This document shows, in pieces, positions 48,507 to 61,440 of a DNA stretch of 61,440 bases. The stretch's first letter is position 1. Every line of letters starts with the position of its first letter. Origin of the DNA: a virus; the IMG/VR virus record IMGVR_UViG_3300041955_000322, positions 1-61,440 of that record; one strand, written 5' to 3'. Below the pieces are notes generated by a model that was not told where the DNA came from, ran no database searches, and saw only the letters and a program-made list of their open reading frames with translations. The position numbers and the translations under genes are program-made.

Positions 48507-51401
48507 ATGGCGGAAGTCGATGATTGGATTGTCGATGACGGCAAGCCCCAGGATTGGGTAACGCCGCCGCAAAATCTGCACGACAAGATCGGTGCACGCG
48601 ATCCGCTGAATGTCGCGCCGGGCACACCTGGCGCACGCGTGCTCGAGGCGGCAGGCCGCGGCGCCAAGGAAGGCTTCGGCGATGAGCCGCTCGGCATCGT
48701 CGGCGGATCAAAAACCGATAAAGAGCTCGCCAAGCTCGGCATCTTCCATGACGGCGACAAGGGCTACGTCGGCCCGATCGGCGCCGTGCAGTTGCTCAAT
48801 GAAGCAATCTTGCGGCCGACCGCCGCCAGCGTCGATGCGTTCTTCCGCGCACTGAGCGGCGGCGTCTATGGCGTTGCCGCCGGCGCCGGCCAGGTCGCAC
48901 AGGAGCTCGGGCAAAGTCCGGAGCAAGCAGCGAAGCTCTCGCGCGATGTGCTCACCGGCGAAGACCTTGCGCTTATGTCGCACGTCCCGGAGCGCCAGCT
49001 CCTGCAGGCCGGGCGCAGCGCGGGCTCACCGGCTTATGCGCCGGTGCAATCGTCGCCTAGCGAAGTCGAGGCGTTTCTCGGCCGCGCCCGCGGCATGCAA
49101 GCGCGCAAGGAAGTCGATGACTTTCTCCGCGAGCAAGAAGCCCGCAGAGCAGCACAGCCAGCGCCCGCCGGCACACCGCAACTACCCCCTCCCTCCGAGG
49201 GTGCGCCATCTGCCCCGGCAGCGGCGCAACCTCCGAACGCGCCCGCGCCGGAAGCTCCGGCAGCCCCGGTTGCGGGCGCGCGCCCCATCGATGAGAGCTT
49301 TCCGAACCTCGACGAGCCGACGCGAGCATCGCCGGCGCCCGTCGACGATTGGATCATCCCGCAGGAGACGCCCAATGATCGTCAAGTCGGGCCAGGGCTA
49401 CCAGGTCAAGTCGGAGCACGGCAAGAACCTCAGCCGGCCGGGCCTGTCGAAAGCGCAGGCGGAGCACCGGCTCAAGCAGGTGGAATACTTCAAGCACCTC
49501 AAGGAGCACCGGCGGCCGAAAACGTCGCTCGCCCGAATGTAGCGCCGCCTTCGCTCCAAGAACTGTTTGCAGATCCGCGCACCGCGGATCAGATGAGGGC
49601 CGATCGCGCGGCGGAACGTGGCAGGATCGAAGCGGTTGGACAGCGCGGCGCCCTCGACGCCGGTCAAAACGTCACTACGACACCTGATGTCATAGCGCTC
49701 GGTCCGCCGGCGCCGGCGCCCGCCACCACCACTCAAACGGTTGTTAACGACCAACCGCCCGCCGCCCGCCCGACTTCCCTCCAAGAGCTATTCGCCGATC
49801 CGCGCTCGGCCGACGAGATCCGGGCGGAGATCGAGGCGGCGAAGAGATGGCAGCCAACCGCCGATTGGCAGGAAGTTCCGCAAATTCCGGGCGGGTATCA
49901 CAATCCTGTTATGTCCGGCCTCGAAACCCGCACCGAGGACGGCAAGACCTTCGCGCGGATCCCGCCGCCTCCGCCCACACCCGGCACCCCGGAGGCTCCG
50001 GTCGAGCTAACCGGTCCCGCCGACGTGCACCATGGCGCCGCGATCACCGCGGAGCCCACCCCCGCCCAGGCCGAAGCCGGCAATTACCGCAAGCGCCACG
50101 TCACCTGGAACGGCCTCGACATTGCGATCGAGACCGAGGCGGGGCAAGAACGCACCGGCATCGGGCCGAATAACGCGCCCTGGTCGGTGACGCTGCAGCA
50201 CCCCTACGGCTACATCAAGCGGACCGAAGGTGCAGACGGCGAGCAAGTCGACGTCTATCTCGGCCCTCATCCCCAATCCCCCCACGTCTATATCGTCGAT
50301 CAGATCGACCCGGCGACGGGCGCGTTCGACGAGCACAAGGCCCTGATCGGGTTTCCCGACGAGGTCAGCGCGCGCGCCGCCTATGCCGCGGGCTTTTCCG
50401 ACAATCTCGGCCCGGCGCGCCTGGGCGCCCTGCGCGCGGTCACTGTGCCCGAGTTCAAGACCTGGCTGCATAGGGGCGACCTCACCAAGCCCACCGCGTA
50501 CAGCGACCCTGTAGAGGCGGCGCGGGCCCTTGCAAAAGAGCACGGACTGAACGCCACCGACGCCGAGATCGAGGCAGCGGCCCGCTCGGCAAAGGACAAC
50601 AATGCTGACCTATTAGACGAATTGGTCTCCACGATCGAGCACGCCGCTATTGTCGAGGAAGCCGATTCGCCCGATAGTATCCAGCGCCAAGAGGCGGCAC
50701 ATGCACCTGTCACCGCAGACACGAGTGGAATTGGCAAAGAGCCTGCGCAAGCAGGCGAACAAGCCGGGCGTGCCGGTGCGCAAGAAATTGAACAAGCGCC
50801 GGCTGTCGTCGAACCTCATGGCAATGAACGCGATCAAGCTGCAGAGCCGGTAAAGAAACCGCCGACCCCGCAAGTCCCCGCCGAGCCGGGCACGAAGTAC
50901 GTCCTCCCGTCATTCGTCACCAATCAGTACGTGACCAAGAAGCCCACGCGCGGCGGCAAAGAGCCGAGCGATTGGACCGAGATCGGCAAGAACGAGATAG
51001 GCCAAACGCTCTACGAGGATCAGCGCGGCGTTCGCTCGTACATCGAGAACGGCGTGCGGACCACCGAGGCGGTTCCGATCCGGCCCACGCGCGCCGGCGT
51101 CGAAGTGGAGAAGCCCGAGCACAAGGACGAATGGCGGCTCGCGTCGGAAACGACAAAACCGGCGACAAATATTCCTGAAAATATAACCGAGCCCGCTCTT
51201 GAACCGATCGAGCCCTACGTCGGCACGGCCGCGCCCACCGCTCGCGATCTCATCAAACTCGCCAACACCAAGATGAACGATGCACAGCGCGCGGATGCGC
51301 GCCGCTACATCGAACGTATGATGGAGCAGATGGAAGCCGAAGGCCGCAAGATCGCCGAGCATTGTCTCGAAACGGCCGGCAAGTTTTCGCTGCGGGGATG
51401 A
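48507..51401 (+). CDS. Polyvalent protein with pyrophosphatase-like domain
   Basis: A 964-aa modular protein. Residues 1-320 are an N-terminal virion-type part (GAVQLLNEAILRPTAASVDA). Two copies of a short linker motif, SLQELFADPRTADQMRA and SLQELFADPRSADEIRA, lie near 350 and 425. About 520-665 is a pyrophosphatase-like domain of polyvalent proteins: RKRHVTWNGLDIAIETEAGQ, HPYGYIKRTEGADGEQVDVY, PHVYIVDQIDPATGAFDEHK. The rest is linker-rich. Such proteins are believed to be delivered with phage DNA to act early in the cell. The domain match is from memory. Confidence 0.75.
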   Translation: MAEVDDWIVDDGKPQDWVTPPQNLHDKIGARDPLNVAPGTPGARVLEAAGRGAKEGFGDEPLGIVGGSKTDKELAKLGIFHDGDKGYVGPIGAVQLLNEAILRPTAASVDAFFRALSGGVYGVAAGAGQVAQELGQSPEQAAKLSRDVLTGEDLALMSHVPERQLLQAGRSAGSPAYAPVQSSPSEVEAFLGRARGMQARKEVDDFLREQEARRAAQPAPAGTPQLPPPSEGAPSAPAAAQPPNAPAPEAPAAPVAGARPIDESFPNLDEPTRASPAPVDDWIIPQETPNDRQVGPGLPGQVGARQEPQPAGPVESAGGAPAQAGGILQAPQGAPAAENVARPNVAPPSLQELFADPRTADQMRADRAAERGRIEAVGQRGALDAGQNVTTTPDVIALGPPAPAPATTTQTVVNDQPPAARPTSLQELFADPRSADEIRAEIEAAKRWQPTADWQEVPQIPGGYHNPVMSGLETRTEDGKTFARIPPPPPTPGTPEAPVELTGPADVHHGAAITAEPTPAQAEAGNYRKRHVTWNGLDIAIETEAGQERTGIGPNNAPWSVTLQHPYGYIKRTEGADGEQVDVYLGPHPQSPHVYIVDQIDPATGAFDEHKALIGFPDEVSARAAYAAGFSDNLGPARLGALRAVTVPEFKTWLHRGDLTKPTAYSDPVEAARALAKEHGLNATDAEIEAAARSAKDNNADLLDELVSTIEHAAIVEEADSPDSIQRQEAAHAPVTADTSGIGKEPAQAGEQAGRAGAQEIEQAPAVVEPHGNERDQAAEPVKKPPTPQVPAEPGTKYVLPSFVTNQYVTKKPTRGGKEPSDWTEIGKNEIGQTLYEDQRGVRSYIENGVRTTEAVPIRPTRAGVEVEKPEHKDEWRLASETTKPATNIPENITEPALEPIEPYVGTAAPTARDLIKLANTKMNDAQRADARRYIERMMEQMEAEGRKIAEHCLETAGKFSLRG
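50499..50513. promoter_or_regulatory. Intragenic operator-like palindrome
   Basis: TACAG-CGACC-CTGTA, the perfect form of the operator consensus, inside the polyvalent protein gene. It could be a chance match or a stoperator-like site that blocks late transcription in the lysogen. Confidence 0.4.
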
Positions 51402-54389: not shown

Positions 54390-57300
54390 ATGCCAATCAA
54401 GTGTCCGAACTTCCGCGACGATAAAGCCCGCGAGGGCTTCAACCAGGTGCTCACGCGCCTGGGCGGCATTGCCATGTCCGCGGATGATATCACGCCGCGG
54501 CAACCGTATCTCGCCCGGCTGAATGAAAGGCAAACGACGGCGTACTACCAGGCCCATTACCTGCACAATGCGCACAAGACGCCCGCGGAGATCGGGAAAT
54601 TCCTAGATGCGCTCGACCAGGTGCGGGCTGCGCTGGCCGCAGAGCCGGCGCCGGCGCCCGCAAAAATGCCGGCACCGGCGACGAAAGCGGAGAACGAAAG
54701 CGGACGGACTCCTTCTGTTCCTGCCGGGGCGGGTGTCGTTTCTAGCGCCACTAGCGCCACGCCCGAAGCCGGCCCGCTCTCGAACCTGCCGGCGATCGAT
54801 CTCGCGCGGGCGCTGGTCGAGCGGCTGCGGGACCCGAGCCAAAAGATCACCGCCAAGGTGCTGCAGATCGAGGCGAGCAAGGCCTACGGCGCCAAGCTTT
54901 CCGAAGGCAAATTCGACCGCAAGGACATTCAGGACGCGCTCGAGCTCGCCGTCAACATGCACATCATGCAGACGCCGGGGCTGCGGATCGACGCCGGCGG
55001 CTCGGCCAAGATGGTGATGACGCGGCTCGAGTCGCTGCTCAACGACATTCCGGCGCAGCGGGTGCGCTCCGAGGAACAACAGGCCCTGCAGCAGTTCTCC
55101 ACCCCGCCGAACTATTCGGCCGCGGCGGTCTATGCGGCCAATCTCCGCGACGGCGACGTCATGCTGGAGCCGTCGGCCGGTACCGGCTCGATCGTGGCGG
55201 CCGCCTCAAAGCCGGGTGTGAAAATCATCGCCAACGAGCTGTCCGAGCGCCGGACGGCCCTTTTGCGGGCGCTTCTCGGTAACAAGGCTGAAATATTTCG
55301 TGAGAACGCCGAGCAGCTCAACAACACCCTCCCCGATAGCGTGAAGCCCACCGTGGTGGTGATGAACCCGCCGTTCTCGCAGACGGCCGGCCGCCTGGGC
55401 GATCGCAAGGTGCCGATGACCGGCGCCATCCATATCGAGCAGGCCTTGAAGCGCCTCGAAGACGGCGGCCGCCTGGTGGCGATCGTCGGCCGCGGCATGA
55501 CGATGGGCGCCCCAACCTTCCGCGCCTGGTGGTCGAAGATCGCCAACGAATACGCCGTGCGCGCCAATATCGGCGTCGAGGGCAAGGTCTACGAGAAGTA
55601 CGGGACCACTTTCGGGACGCGTTTACTTGTCATAGATAAGGTGAAGCCGGACGGGACGAAGCCCGTTCTGGCGGATGCGCAGACGGTCGATGACCTGATG
55701 CGCGAGTTGGAGCCGATCCGAAATGCCCGGCCTGCCGCAGAACAACATCCCGCTCAACCGAGTGGCGCTGCAGTGGCTGAAGGAAGCCAAGACGCCGGCG
55801 CCGGCGCATTACCTGCATCTGCTGACACTGGCGCAGTGGGGCCTGGAACACCAGGCGAGCGGGGAGTGGCCGGACAGCGACCGAGCGGCGCTGCAGCACC
55901 AACTGGAGCTGCTGGACGGGTGGAAGCCGGCGGACGCCCTGGCGTGGCTGCTGGCGAACCCGAACGCGGGGGATCGGTCGGAGCAACAGGCGAACCTGCT
56001 GCGGCTCCTGGAAACCGTGGAGGACCCGAAGGTAGCGGCGGCGCACGTCCTCAACGCGATCTACAGCCGGCAGGTGAGCCAGAACCCGGCCTTACAGCCA
56101 GCGGCGAGCGAATTGAGCTAGAGCACGCCGAGCCCGGCGAGCAGGGCGCGTCGGAGATCTCCGAAAGCCTCTACGACAATTACGAGCCGCAGCGCGTCAA
56201 AGTTCATGGCGCCAAGCCGCATCCCTCGAAGCTCGTCGAATCGGCCGCGATGGCATCGGTGGCACCGCCGACGCCGGCGTACAAGCCGAGCCTGCCGCGC
56301 GCGACCATCGAAAAAGGCCTGCTCTCCACCGCGCAGCTCGAGCCGGTGATCTACGCCGGCGAAGCGCACTCCAAGATGCTGCCGGCGGCGGAAGGCGAGA
56401 AGCCCACGCGCAAAGGTTTTTTCATCGGCGACGGTACAGGTGTGGGCAAAGGCCGCGAGATCGCGGGCATCATCCTCGACAACTGGAACCAGGGCCGCCA
56501 GAAAGCGGTGTGGGTGTCGGAGAAGCGCAAGCTGCTCAGTGACGCGCGGCGCGATTGGTCCGGCATTGCGCAAAAGCCCGATCTCATCTTCGACGTCGGC
56601 AAGATCAAGAACGGCGAGCCGATCGGCGCCGCCAAGGGCATCGGCTTCATCACCTATGACACGCTGAAAGGCGGCATGTCGGATCAAGCCGCATTGTCCC
56701 GCGGCGGCTTCGTGCGCAAGCAGCAAGTCTCGGTGAACGGACAGAGCGGCGTCGTCCAACGTGTCGGCAAGGTCGCCCGCGGCAAGCCGGCCGAGATCAC
56801 CGTGAAGCTCGAAAACGGCACGACCGTCACCGTGCCGGCGAACGAGGTCAAATCGCTCGAAAAGGCGATGGTCAAGTCGCGCATCGATCAGATCGTCGAT
56901 TGGTTCGGCAAGGATTTCGATGGTGTGGTCGCGTTCGACGAGTCCCACAACATGGGCAACGCCACCGATGTAAAGGGCGATCGCGGCCAGAAGGACGCCG
57001 CCATGAAGGCGATCGCCGGCATGGAGCTGCAGAAGCGATTGCCGAACGCCCGCATCGTTTATGTGTCGGCGACGGGTGCCACCGAAGTTGAAAACCTGGC
57101 CTATGCCGAGCGGCTCGGTTTGTGGGGCAGGGGCACGCCGTTCGCGTCGCGCGCGGCTTTCGTGTCCGAGGTCAAGCAGGGCGGCATCGCGGCGATGGAG
57201 CTCATCGCCCGCGACATGAAGCAGCTCGGGCTCTACACCGCGCGCAATCTCTCCTACGATGGCGTCGAATATAACCGCGTCGAGCACAAGCTCGATCCCA

Positions 57301-60300
57301 ACCAGCGCGAAATCTACGACACGCTCGCCGAAGCCTGGCAGGGGGTGCTCCGCAACATCAACGACGCGCTGAAGCTCACCGGCGGTGATAAGGACAGCCG
57401 AACCAAGAGCGCCGCCATGTCGGCGTTTTGGGGCGGCCATCAACGCTTCTTCAATCAAATCATCACGTCGATGCAGATGCCGTCCGTCATCAAGGCGGTG
57501 GAGAAGGACCTGGCCGAAGGCCGCCAGGCGGTGCTGCAGCTCACCAACACCAACGAGGCCTCGCAGGAACGCGCCGCGGCGAAGGCACAGACCGCGGAGG
57601 ATATCGAGGATCTCGACATCACGCCTCGCGATCAGATCATCCAGCTTGTCGAAAACTCGTTTCCGACGCAGCAGTACGAAACCTATGTCGACGAGGACGG
57701 CAAAGAGCGATCGCGTCCGGTCACCGACAGCAACGGCAATGCGGTCCAGAACAAGGAAGCGGTAGCGAAGCGCGAGGCCCTGATCGACCAGCTCGCCTCG
57801 GTGCGCGTGCCGCAAGGACCGCTCGACCTGGTGCTCGATCACTTCGGCATCGATACCGTGGCGGAAGTCACCGGGCGGGGACGGCGCTTTGTGCTCAAGC
57901 CAGACGAGAAAACCGGCCAGCGGCGCCGCGTCGAGGAAAGCCGGCCGGGATCTGCCAACCAGGCCGAAACCGACGCCTTCCAGGATGCCAAGAAGAAAAT
58001 CCTGATCTTCTCCGAAGCCGGCGGCACCGGCGCCTCGTATCACGCCGACAATACCGCGCCGTCGAAGGACGCGCGGCGCGCGCACTACCTGGTGCAAGGC
58101 GGGTGGAGGGCCGACAAAGCAGTGCAGGGGTTTGGCAGAACGCATCGCTCCAACCAGGCCAGCGCCCCGATCCTGAGCCTAGTCACCACCGACCTGCAGG
58201 GGCAGAAGCGGTTTATTTCCTCGATCGCGCGGCGGCTCGGGCAGCTCGGCGCTTTGACCAAGGGCGAGCGCAAGGCCGGCGACCAAGGCGTATTCGCCGC
58301 CCGCGACAATCTGGAAAGCACGGAAGCGAAAACCGCGCTCACACAGTTTTTCCGGGATATCTACAATGACGCCATTCCGGGGATCGAAGTCGGCGATTTC
58401 GAGCAGCAGACCGGCCTCAAAATCCGACAGTCCGACGAGGAAGGCCGCAGCATGGGGATGCTGGAGGACCTGCCGCCGATCACGCAATTCCTCAATCGTC
58501 TCTTGTCGCTCAAGATCAACCTGCAGAACAAGGTGTTTGACGCGTTCTCGGAACGTCTCGACGCGGTGATCGAAGCCCGGCGCGAGGCCGGCTTACTTGA
58601 CGTCGGGCTCGAAACGGTCAAGGCGGACAAGATCGTCAAGGACAGCGAGCAGACCGTGCACACGGTCGAAGGCTCCGGCGCCGAGACGAAGTACGTCAAG
58701 CTCACGCTGTCCCACAAATTCCATCCGACCGAATTTGAGACGGTCGCGCATAACGAGTGGCGCAAAGTGGTCGCCTGGCTCAAAAGCCCGAACGGCAAGG
58801 TCTATGCCGCGGCCGAAGCGCCGAGCCTCACCGACGAGAACGGCCGCATCATCGATCATTACCGCTTGGTGAGCCCGGTCTCGGATTCGCGCACCATCAA
58901 CAAGGATAACGTCGAGAAGCGTGAAACCAAGTGGACGAAGATCGAAAAGAGCGAGGCCTCCGCGCTGTGGCGCAAGGAGATCGCCGGGGCACCGGAATAT
59001 GTCACGCGTGACATGCACCTGGTCACCGGCGTGATCCTGCCGATTTGGGACCGCCTCAAAGGCAATCCGCGCGTCGTGCGGCTGGTGACGGAGGACCGCG
59101 AGCGTATGATCGGCCGCGTCATTCCCAACGACGCGATCGCGGCAACGCTCCGAGCCCTCGGCGCCGAATTGAAGGGCGGCAAGGAAGTGTTGCCGGGCGA
59201 CCTGTTCGAGAAGGTCCTGGCCGGCGGCCGCGCCACGCTGGCAAACGGCTGGACTTTGAGCCGCCGCACGGTCGCCGGCGAGCACCGTATCGAATTGATC
59301 GGCCCGCAGGCCTTCTCCGAAGGCCAGGAGGTCAAAAAGGATGGCGTGTTCACCGAGCGCATTGACTACAAGGTGCGCTATTTCGTGCCGACCAATCCAG
59401 CCGAAGGCATCCAGGTCCTCAAGCGGATCACGCAATACCGGCCGGTGACGGAGCTGCAGGAACACGGCTATGTCCCGGACGACCTGGCCGCCGGCGACGA
59501 GCCGATGTTTTCGGTGCGCGAGGGCACGGTCAAGGGCGAAACAGATGAGCTCGCTGCTGCTGTGGCGCGGCGACTTTATCCCGAGCTGCGCGCCGAACTC
59601 GATCGCATGGGGTTGACCGACATTCCGCTCAATCTGCCCGGAACACTGACCGCCAAGATGGGCGGCAAGCAATTTGAACTGAACGGGTACTATCTCCAGA
59701 AGGCGATCACGGTTGCGCTCAATGCCGACGATATCGCCAACACGTTGCACCACGAGGCGCTCCACGCGCTCCGCGATCTCGGCGTCTTCAAAGACACCGA
59801 ATGGCAAATCCTCGCGAACCAATCAACGCGGACGTGGCTCCGAGACTACAATATCGTCAAGCACTATGCTCACCGCGACCACCTTGTACGGATCGAGGAA
59901 GGCGTTGCCTACGCCTATGCCGATTGGGCGACCGGCAAGAGGAAGGTCGACGGCCGGATCGCCCGGCTGTTCAAGCGCATCCGCGACTTCCTCGAAGCGC
60001 TGCGCAACGCGCTTCGCGGGCTCGGCTTCAAAACCGCGGAAGATGTGTTCCGCGACGTGAAGGAAGGCGAGATCGGCGCGCGCACACGCGGCGCCGGCGG
60101 CAGCGAGCCGATGTTTTCCGTCCGCGAAGCCCCGCCGGCGGAATTCCGGGACACCCCGAACCTCAATGCGCGCGTGCGTGAGCGCATCGCGCAAGCGCTC
60201 GACAGCAAAGCCGCCCGCAAGTTCATCGAGGGCGTCCAGGACCTGTCGCACCCGGTCAAGCTGCTGCAGGACGAGCTCGAGCTGCGCCGCGAGGGCGCAT

Positions 60301-61440
60301 TCGACGATCCCGAGAGCTTCTATGTGCGCAAGCGGCTTTATCCCGGCCGCGTCGGCTCATGGACCGACACCTTCAACAAGAAGCATCTCGATCCGATCGT
60401 CAACGTGCTCAAGTCCAACAGCATCGGCCTGCAGGAAGCGGGCGATTACCTCTATGCGCTGCACGCGGCCGCGCGCAACGAGGAAATGGACAAGATCAAT
60501 CCGGCGGTCGGCGGCGAAGGCTCCGGCATGTCGAATGACGAGGCCGAGAAAATCCTCGCCGAAGCCAGGCGCGGCGAGAACGCCGCAGCGTTCGACGAGC
60601 TGCGCACCAAGATCGGCAGCATCCGCGATCTCATCCTCGACGTGATGGAGAAGGCCGGGCTCGAAAAGCCCGAGGTCATCGCCAACTGGCGGGAAAAATA
60701 TAAGGACTATGTGCCGCTGCGCGGTTGGGAAGTGGAACCGGACGATGCACCGCCCGAATATCGCGGGCCTGGCGCCGGCTTCAACGTCCGCGGCAAGGAG
60801 GTCAAGCGAGCCTTCGGCCGCCGCTCCAAGGCGGATAATCCCTTGGTCAACCTGTTCGACCAGGCGTACCGCACCTTCGACCGCGCCGAACGAAACCGCT
60901 ACCTGCAATCGCTCTACCGCGCGATCGACGATCTCGGCGATGCGGCAGAGGACATCGCCACGCTCGATCGCGGCAAGCCGCGGCGCGACATCGACCCGCG
61001 CACCGGCATGGTGCGGACGGTGGAAACCTCAAATCAGTACATGAACCCGAAGGCCGTCTATCTCAAATTCGACGGCAACCCGCATTTCATGGTGTTCCGC
61101 GATCAGCAGCTCGCCGAAGCGGTCAAGCGGATGGGCCCGGAGAGCATGGGCGACACGCTCGGCTATCTGTTGCGCCTGCAGAACAAGATGAAGGCGCTGT
61201 GGACGCACTACTCGCCCGACTTCCTGTTTCGGCACTTCATGTTCCGCTACCCGATCGAGGGCGCGCTCAATTCGTTCGAGCAGAAGGAAGGCGGCGAGCA
61301 TCGCGTCTCGAAGTATGTGCAGGACAGTTTCCCGTTCATGGGCAAAGCGAGCAAGGCGATCTTCGCCTCGAACAAGGGCTTGCTCCACGACGATCCAGAA
61401 ATCCGGCAGATGCAGAAGGAATGGGACCTGATGCGCCGCG
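54390..61440 (+). CDS. Giant polyvalent protein: methylase, Sno helicase, zincin, LPD38
   Basis: The frame opened at ATG 54390 stays open to the window end and continues at base 2, giving about 2731 aa. Domains in order: an N-terminal helical part; an N6-adenine methylase-like domain (LEPSAGTGS near 258, MNPPFS at 325-330); a low-complexity linker (about 445-580) that is overprinted by another ORF; a strawberry-notch-type helicase (Walker A GDGTGVGKG near 680, DESH near 850, VSATGATE near 890, motif VI QGFGRTHRSNQ near 1245); a zinc protease motif HEALH (1788-1792); and an LPD38-like end. Polyvalent proteins of this build are thought to enter the cell with phage DNA and shield it or remodel host functions. 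The early methylase may protect the DNA on entry. Confidence 0.85.
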   Translation, partial: MPIKCPNFRDDKAREGFNQVLTRLGGIAMSADDITPRQPYLARLNERQTTAYYQAHYLHNAHKTPAEIGKFLDALDQVRAALAAEPAPAPAKMPAPATKAENESGRTPSVPAGAGVVSSATSATPEAGPLSNLPAIDLARALVERLRDPSQKITAKVLQIEASKAYGAKLSEGKFDRKDIQDALELAVNMHIMQTPGLRIDAGGSAKMVMTRLESLLNDIPAQRVRSEEQQALQQFSTPPNYSAAAVYAANLRDGDVMLEPSAGTGSIVAAASKPGVKIIANELSERRTALLRALLGNKAEIFRENAEQLNNTLPDSVKPTVVVMNPPFSQTAGRLGDRKVPMTGAIHIEQALKRLEDGGRLVAIVGRGMTMGAPTFRAWWSKIANEYAVRANIGVEGKVYEKYGTTFGTRLLVIDKVKPDGTKPVLADAQTVDDLMRELEPIRNARPAAEQHPAQPSGAAVAEGSQDAGAGALPASADTGAVGPGTPGERGVAGQRPSGAAAPTGAAGRVEAGGRPGVAAGEPERGGSVGATGEPAAAPGNRGGPEGSGGARPQRDLQPAGEPEPGLTASGERIELEHAEPGEQGASEISESLYDNYEPQRVKVHGAKPHPSKLVESAAMASVAPPTPAYKPSLPRATIEKGLLSTAQLEPVIYAGEAHSKMLPAAEGEKPTRKGFFIGDGTGVGKGREIAGIILDNWNQGRQKAVWVSEKRKLLSDARRDWSGIAQKPDLIFDVGKIKNGEPIGAAKGIGFITYDTLKGGMSDQAALSRGGFVRKQQVSVNGQSGVVQRVGKVARGKPAEITVKLENGTTVTVPANEVKSLEKAMVKSRIDQIVDWFGKDFDGVVAFDESHNMGNATDVKGDRGQKDAAMKAIAGMELQKRLPNARIVYVSATGATEVENLAYAERLGLWGRGTPFASRAAFVSEVKQGGIAAMELIARDMKQLGLYTARNLSYDGVEYNRVEHKLDPNQREIYDTLAEAWQGVLRNINDALKLTGGDKDSRTKSAAMSAFWGGHQRFFNQIITSMQMPSVIKAVEKDLAEGRQAVLQLTNTNEASQERAAAKAQTAEDIEDLDITPRDQIIQLVENSFPTQQYETYVDEDGKERSRPVTDSNGNAVQNKEAVAKREALIDQLASVRVPQGPLDLVLDHFGIDTVAEVTGRGRRFVLKPDEKTGQRRRVEESRPGSANQAETDAFQDAKKKILIFSEAGGTGASYHADNTAPSKDARRAHYLVQGGWRADKAVQGFGRTHRSNQASAPILSLVTTDLQGQKRFISSIARRLGQLGALTKGERKAGDQGVFAARDNLESTEAKTALTQFFRDIYNDAIPGIEVGDFEQQTGLKIRQSDEEGRSMGMLEDLPPITQFLNRLLSLKINLQNKVFDAFSERLDAVIEARREAGLLDVGLETVKADKIVKDSEQTVHTVEGSGAETKYVKLTLSHKFHPTEFETVAHNEWRKVVAWLKSPNGKVYAAAEAPSLTDENGRIIDHYRLVSPVSDSRTINKDNVEKRETKWTKIEKSEASALWRKEIAGAPEYVTRDMHLVTGVILPIWDRLKGNPRVVRLVTEDRERMIGRVIPNDAIAATLRALGAELKGGKEVLPGDLFEKVLAGGRATLANGWTLSRRTVAGEHRIELIGPQAFSEGQEVKKDGVFTERIDYKVRYFVPTNPAEGIQVLKRITQYRPVTELQEHGYVPDDLAAGDEPMFSVREGTVKGETDELAAAVARRLYPELRAELDRMGLTDIPLNLPGTLTAKMGGKQFELNGYYLQKAITVALNADDIANTLHHEALHALRDLGVFKDTEWQILANQSTRTWLRDYNIVKHYAHRDHLVRIEEGVAYAYADWATGKRKVDGRIARLFKRIRDFLEALRNALRGLGFKTAEDVFRDVKEGEIGARTRGAGGSEPMFSVREAPPAEFRDTPNLNARVRERIAQALDSKAARKFIEGVQDLSHPVKLLQDELELRREGAFDDPESFYVRKRLYPGRVGSWTDTFNKKHLDPIVNVLKSNSIGLQEAGDYLYALHAAARNEEMDKINPAVGGEGSGMSNDEAEKILAEARRGENAAAFDELRTKIGSIRDLILDVMEKAGLEKPEVIANWREKYKDYVPLRGWEVEPDDAPPEYRGPGAGFNVRGKEVKRAFGRRSKADNPLVNLFDQAYRTFDRAERNRYLQSLYRAIDDLGDAAEDIATLDRGKPRRDIDPRTGMVRTVETSNQYMNPKAVYLKFDGNPHFMVFRDQQLAEAVKRMGPESMGDTLGYLLRLQNKMKALWTHYSPDFLFRHFMFRYPIEGALNSFEQKEGGEHRVSKYVQDSFPFMGKASKAIFASNKGLLHDDPEIRQMQKEWDLMRR
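55723..56121 (+). CDS. Overprinted ORF inside the giant gene linker
   Basis: A 132-aa ORF in the +1 frame of the giant gene. ATG 55723 has GGAG about 11 bases upstream, and TAG ends it at 56121. The product looks like a folded helical protein (NRVALQWLKEAKTPAPAHYL, ALQHQLELLDGWKPADALAW, LLRLLETVEDPKVAAAHVLN). By my count only about 15 of 132 codons end in A or T, whereas the giant frame here has mixed third bases and encodes a G-, P- and A-rich linker. Both observations say that this frame is under coding selection. Leucine is nearly always CTG and alanine GCG, unlike neighbouring genes. No family is recognised. Confidence 0.7.
   Translation: MPGLPQNNIPLNRVALQWLKEAKTPAPAHYLHLLTLAQWGLEHQASGEWPDSDRAALQHQLELLDGWKPADALAWLLANPNAGDRSEQQANLLRLLETVEDPKVAAAHVLNAIYSRQVSQNPALQPAASELS
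61029..61440 (+). repeat. Terminal overlap, copy 2
   Basis: Second copy of 11-422, in frame with the giant gene. It ends with the window, so the true length of the redundancy cannot be seen. Confidence 0.95.

Follow-up and report, generated by a model that had tools for sequence, protein, structure and literature searches.

A protein-coding gene nested in the interdomain linker of a giant viral methylase-helicase gene, with free-standing relatives in bacteria

Iyer et al. (2017; PMC5512222) described a class of polyvalent proteins, the DNA methylase-helicase dyad proteins, that includes strawberry-notch types such as Methylomonas WP_020485828.1. The antirestriction protein DarB of phage P1 is a large virion-associated protein that likewise combines a methyltransferase with a helicase (PMC5512222). 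A different precedent comes from hepatitis B virus, in which a gene thought to have once lain between two enzyme genes was later overprinted, and in which a spacer joins the domains (PMC8227390).

The window analyzed here, a 61,440-nucleotide stretch of a virus record (IMG/VR IMGVR_UViG_3300041955_000322), contains terminase, portal and head-closure genes. It also contains a giant gene that fits the polyvalent methylase-helicase class, as both an adenine-type methyltransferase and an SNF2/strawberry-notch helicase are encoded in one mobile-element ORF. An N-terminal part is followed by the DNA methyltransferase (PHROG match, E 8.8e-11), a linker, the strawberry-notch helicase (Pfam AAA_34, E 3.8e-115; Helicase_C_4, E 5.9e-84) and further domains. 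With P1 DarB the giant protein shares the general class alone. The linker hides a second gene, called OV here. PMC5512222 contains neither the word ‘overlap’ nor the word ‘linker’ and makes no mention of a nested gene, so OV is new relative to that paper. The features of the locus are as follows.

54390-61439, plus strand: giant polyvalent ORF, 2350 aa, running off the window (from the ORF list)
55044-55685, plus strand: methyltransferase region of the giant protein, directly upstream of the overlap (PHROG_6263 and 799)
55686-56309, plus strand: disordered linker of the giant protein, about 208 aa, holding the overlap (AlphaFold, alignment)
55709-55712, plus strand: GGAG ribosome-binding site of the nested gene, 10 nt from its ATG (sequence)
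55723-56121, plus strand: nested gene OV, ATG to TAG, in the +1 frame relative to 54390-61439
56733-58616, plus strand: strawberry-notch helicase (AAA_34 core plus Helicase_C_4), downstream of the overlap (Pfam)

The ORF, its ATG, stop and frame and its base composition are as first noted, with a product of 132 aa (14.5 kDa, pI 5.4, all-alpha). An earlier hand count of about 89% G/C at third positions is matched by the computed whole-ORF value of 0.89 in the +1 frame, against 0.43 in the giant frame. In sliding windows over the nested ORF the two frames take values of 0.83-0.92 and 0.39-0.52, and the preference reverts to the giant frame on both flanks of the overlap. Among same-strand nested ORFs of at least 90 aa in the long window genes scanned, this inversion is the strongest by far. 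The length of the ORF is within chance for a GC-rich giant gene (codon shuffling, P = 0.29 and 0.38). We dropped ORF length as proof of coding, as it is non-significant in GC-rich members. Because length alone is uninformative in the giant gene, we compared relatives, and it is on conservation across homologues, rather than on ORF length, that the case for a real nested gene rests.

Two close viral contigs encode OV proteins of 68% and 61% identity. BLAST of the 132-aa protein against annotated phages and plasmids gave zero matches because the plasmid members are too diverged, and a pattern search of viral and genome contigs, built on a three-sequence alignment, gave no additional members. The flanking helicase and methyltransferase were therefore used as queries; the methyltransferase region is 84% conserved in the viral contig L002 and down to about 40% in far relatives. 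These queries recovered dozens of giants, some on viral contigs and others in genomes of Proteobacteria, Bacillota, Thermodesulfobacteriota and Spirochaetota. With plasmid and Bacteroides phage records added, 60 homologous loci (L numbers below) were examined.

The nested ORF is at the same place in every one of the 49 giants, from many phyla, that are full-length and have both a long linker and a clear +1 protein. Their linkers run to about 178-230 aa and their nested ORFs to about 108-157 aa, always in the +1 frame and always with the giant frame open. In none of the full-length long-linker homologues was the +1 frame broken while the linker stayed open. Giants with short linkers (about 120-150 aa) do not have OV; they are mostly from plasmids of Rhizobium, Sphingobium, Nostoc and others. 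They form a clade of nine rows split from the long-linker giants by one branch of the giant tree (support 55/79), with a single change needed in 89% of bootstrap trees. Whole-record searches of seven short-linker plasmids found no OV copy elsewhere on the record. Four loci were left out as unclear: L015, L018, L047 (assembly gap) and L077 (ORF present, profile match absent).

An unbiased profile search across all six frames of about 1,550 genomes gave two further nested matches in Gammaproteobacteria (L085, L086), again between methyltransferase and helicase. L103 and L104 hold broken OV fragments in decayed elements, with a short methyltransferase stretch in L103 and none within reach in L104. 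In three Clostridia-type giants a +1 ORF sits at the same place without a match to the family profile (L040, 5653-5997; L060, 4492-4848; L062, 4519-4872); these may be either very diverged OV or a different gene in the same niche. In the Thioflavicoccus plasmid pTHIMO01 (L067) the nested ORF is intact, and the annotation covers the helicase end of the giant only. Plasmid MEALZ_p of Methylotuvimicrobium alcaliphilum 20Z (L068) has the nested ORF at 2156-2500.

Both frames bear the marks of selection. In 33 of 33 pairs the +1 protein is more conserved than the linker (e.g. identities of 0.68 and 0.52 between the window and L002), and third positions of the giant frame are the most variable in the helicase but not in the overlap. 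With the giant peptides held fixed, the observed +1 identity exceeded that of codon-shuffled sequences with a median z of 10.7, compared with 1.2 in a helicase control, which speaks for strong purifying selection in the +1 frame; these z-scores, and the counts given here, overstate certainty, as the sequences are related and not independent. Conversely, with the +1 protein held fixed, the 49 nested copies would be expected to show 86 stops in the giant frame and show none. Free-standing chromosomal copies have 4-12 stops in the equivalent frame, as many as random. The conserved +1 protein and the stop-free giant frame together mean that both frames are under selection, as the dual-coding overlap proposed earlier implied. 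The pattern indicates that the nested frame is constrained as a protein and the giant frame mainly to stay open as a spacer. The earlier note named two refuting checks, one for broken +1 frames and one for selection, and neither went against the gene. On this comparative evidence we regard 55723-56121 as confirmed to be a genuine protein-coding gene in the +1 frame of the giant gene.

The start signals are conserved as well. The GGAG site and ATG first proposed from the window alone have counterparts in 40 of 47 homologues, where 18.4 ± 3.0 sites, and 7.4 ± 2.4 sites paired with an ATG, are expected when synonymous codons of the giant frame are resampled; these counts are indicative, since starts were chosen with the alignment known and the rows are related. 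The giant peptide at the ribosome site varies (LEPIR, LEGIR, LQEVR, LKGVR, LAGVH, LGGIR) and GGAG(G) persists in shifted register; it is therefore the DNA signal that is conserved, not the peptide. Ribosomes would thus be expected to start at OV's own GGAG-ATG inside the giant mRNA.

The product would be a small, acidic, all-helical protein, and the giant-frame reading of the same bases a disordered spacer between methyltransferase and helicase. The AlphaFold model of OV, built with 36 aligned relatives, has seven helices (pLDDT 91.5, pTM 0.85). The giant linker scores about 30 (about 28-33) and is structureless in a prediction poorly informed by its eight sequences. The contrast agrees with the earlier description of a helical product over a G/P/A-rich disordered linker. 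No family match was found in Pfam, PHROGs or NCBIfam, no fold or sequence match in the PDB and no fold match in BFVD, the best E of about 0.65 being meaningless. Conserved positions (N7, L11, N12, A15, L19, L31, L36, W39, L64, P69, P102, A106) are mostly structural, and no candidate catalytic set is found among them. OV is acidic across the family (median pI 4.8). We considered a DNA-mimic inhibitor and rejected it, as the acidity is not extreme and the fold search was unsupportive.

Besides nested copies, the six-frame search uncovered stand-alone OV-related genes in Desulfobacterota, and profile-profile comparison joins the nested and free forms (probability 99.6, E 2e-24). One free clade is a single-copy core gene, present in 37 of 46 genomes of one Desulfobacterota order; its chromosomal members encode about 115-130 aa (L107-L109, L111-L120, L122-L151), and one is fused to a Nudix domain (L120). 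Two further copies are liberated nested genes (L106, 5998-6363, minus strand; L110, 5989-6303, minus strand), in which the ORF is intact and the methyltransferase and helicase are gone. In L106 the linker frame is still readable and is 51% identical to the L046 giant over the OV stretch; in L110 it still reads LQEVRDARTPAGERG, with the ribosome site and the adjoining upstream linker peptide preserved. A helicase search, run without a positive-control genome, gave no match in any of 15 genomes with free copies. Free-standing relatives thus exist without a methyltransferase or helicase nearby, which argues that OV can act alone, without the giant gene. The chromosomal neighbors (Ppx/GppA with a PAS histidine kinase, Nudix, deformylase with Met-tRNA formyltransferase, NrfHA, M29, PCMT) differ by lineage and give no single answer, and we set them aside as a clue to function.

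The window holds a second nested gene, inside another ORF.

49375-49542, plus strand: second nested gene, 55 aa, MIVKSGQGYQVKSEHGKNLSRPGLSKAQAEHRLKQVEYFKHLKEHRRPKTSLARM, in the +1 frame of the polyvalent ORF 48507-51401

An AGGAG site lies 7 nt before its ATG. The product is 73%, 59% and 56% identical to those of L002, L007 and L016, each of them nested in a giant frame. Relatives are free-standing in Aeromonas phage 1233 (L152) and viral contig L154, and form part of a longer ORF in other sequences. The case directly illustrates a small gene found free in other sequences but swallowed in the window. The surrounding 964-aa ORF contains a domain resembling inorganic pyrophosphatase (Pfam InPase) and is similar to DarB-like and virion proteins; it is likely another polyvalent protein adjoining the giant.

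The earlier note took OV to be overprinted on the linker, a polarity that is probably wrong. OV is confidently folded, has free-standing relatives and is better codon-adapted in most genomes, and the linker is disordered and fast-evolving; for these reasons we consider it likely, though not proven, that the linker was written over an older OV gene. In 36 of 49 copies, mainly GC-rich members, codon adaptation is higher in OV than in the linker; this polarity fails in 13 of 49, AT-rich members. Distances for OV and the giant correlate (r 0.75), so the two have long travelled together. The OV tree requires at least three changes between nested and free states, although its deep branches are weak and the tree cannot be rooted. 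The chromosomal clade groups in it with nested phage copies, again on weakly supported deep branches. Phage-to-cell and cell-to-phage origins are therefore not settled by this tree. The nested mobile-element form is widespread and the chromosomal clade is confined to one order, a distribution that would be consistent, too, with OV having left a mobile element and entered that order.

In what we take to be the most likely history, a folded small gene lay, or was inserted, between methyltransferase and helicase cistrons. The giant ORF would then have read through it in the -1 frame, so that the linker was overprinted on OV. OV would later have escaped at least twice as a stand-alone gene, with a probable third escape that gave rise to the core gene of one Desulfobacterota order. 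More generally, linkers of polyvalent giants may be ‘swallowed genes’: ORFs would have grown through small neighbors in the -1 frame, leaving disordered linkers that are out-of-frame copies of living genes, with two cases in the window, one of which later left its mobile element and became the core gene of a bacterial order. We offer this generalization tentatively, as an idea that may well prove wrong. As to function, OV may be a trans-acting binding protein, an adaptor or inhibitor rather than an enzyme, directed at a target common among cells and made alongside the giant when the element expresses the latter. We propose this role because OV persists without the giant and lacks enzyme-like residues, and would put its chances just short of even. 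Taken as a whole, an explanation built on a genuine nested gene, with a linker written over it, later escapes and, at the lower odds just given, a trans-acting binder, is very probably the best account of the data.

Other readings of the locus deserve weight. The reverse history, in which the linker is old and OV was born de novo in its +1 frame, is rather unlikely in our judgment. Such a history would accommodate three observations: de novo frames in published surveys occur most often at +1 (PMC8227390), the range of taxa with the mobile-element form is far wider than that of the chromosomal form, and nested copies are the tree neighbors of the chromosomal clade. However, it is the de novo proteins that are disordered as a rule (PMC8227390), and here it is OV that has the confident compact fold and the linker that has none. 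Codon usage favors OV as the older frame in the majority of copies given above, and the short-linker relatives suggest that OV arrived along with roughly 80 additional linker residues. Nor is the nested frame confined to the overlap, as expected of de novo birth: it has free-standing homologues in Desulfobacterota, two of them clearly secondary escapes. A chance product of composition, with GC-rich linkers leaving long +1 ORFs open, is already refuted by the conservation tests and retains virtually no probability. The non-significant ORF lengths in GC-rich members are what it predicts, and the short-linker plasmid L072 has a 164-aa +1 ORF without homology, but it does not account for the conserved protein, conserved start signals, confident fold and free-standing homologues, nor for AT-rich members (L037, L049, L061, L063) in which nested ORF lengths are significant.

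OV might instead serve the giant. As a dedicated partner of the methyltransferase-helicase (a regulator, inhibitor or loading chaperone), it would be made from the same message, letting both assemble at once, and might keep the giant silent, or ready for packaging or transfer; we find both the role and this mechanism doubtful, if well worth considering. Co-occurrence with long-linker giants is strict, divergence of the two is correlated, and OV sits between the two enzymatic domains. Known effector chaperones are small, acidic and helical, and OV may resemble them in this respect. Against a dedicated partnership, free-standing OV occurs in genomes where such a helicase was not found, and short-linker giants work without OV in cis or elsewhere on the plasmid. 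The short-linker clade also counts against our main reading, in that it shows that methyltransferase and helicase can dispense with OV. Alternatively, the +1 frame could be reached by programmed frameshifting from the methyltransferase, yielding a methyltransferase-OV fusion, which we think very improbable. The +1 frame of this giant gene stays open over only 24 nt upstream of the ATG, which leaves a small space for a possible shift. The ribosome site and ATG are conserved beyond what the giant peptide demands, however, and the ORF persists in the liberated copies L106 and L110, where the methyltransferase is gone.

We found no prior report of the nested gene in the literature searched, which takes in only a minority of subscription journals. 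OV is also absent from the gene annotations and protein-family libraries checked, because the gene sits inside another gene; a family that spans phages, plasmids and bacterial chromosomes thus lacks a family-library entry. Its members provide a natural experiment in dual coding, with nested copies (stop-free host frame), copies just liberated (ghost linker) and copies long free (stop-filled). They also point to one specific way in which giant proteins of many domains may acquire their disordered linkers. The second nested gene suggests that further cases would turn up if polyvalent genes were systematically reread.

The OV locus resembles the overlap of the polymerase spacer and surface gene of hepatitis B virus in having an overprinted gene between enzyme domains. 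It differs in that virus and proteins are unrelated and in that OV is also free-standing in bacterial chromosomes; unlike the hepatitis B virus case, OV has lasted across phages, plasmids and several phyla. Like overlapping genes of E. coli and phages (PMC4683798, PMC9927249, PMC9936078), it is an extra frame in a known gene that annotation has missed. Most reported bacterial overlaps are young or antisense, whereas OV lies on the same strand as its host gene, spans phyla and has escaped independently more than once.
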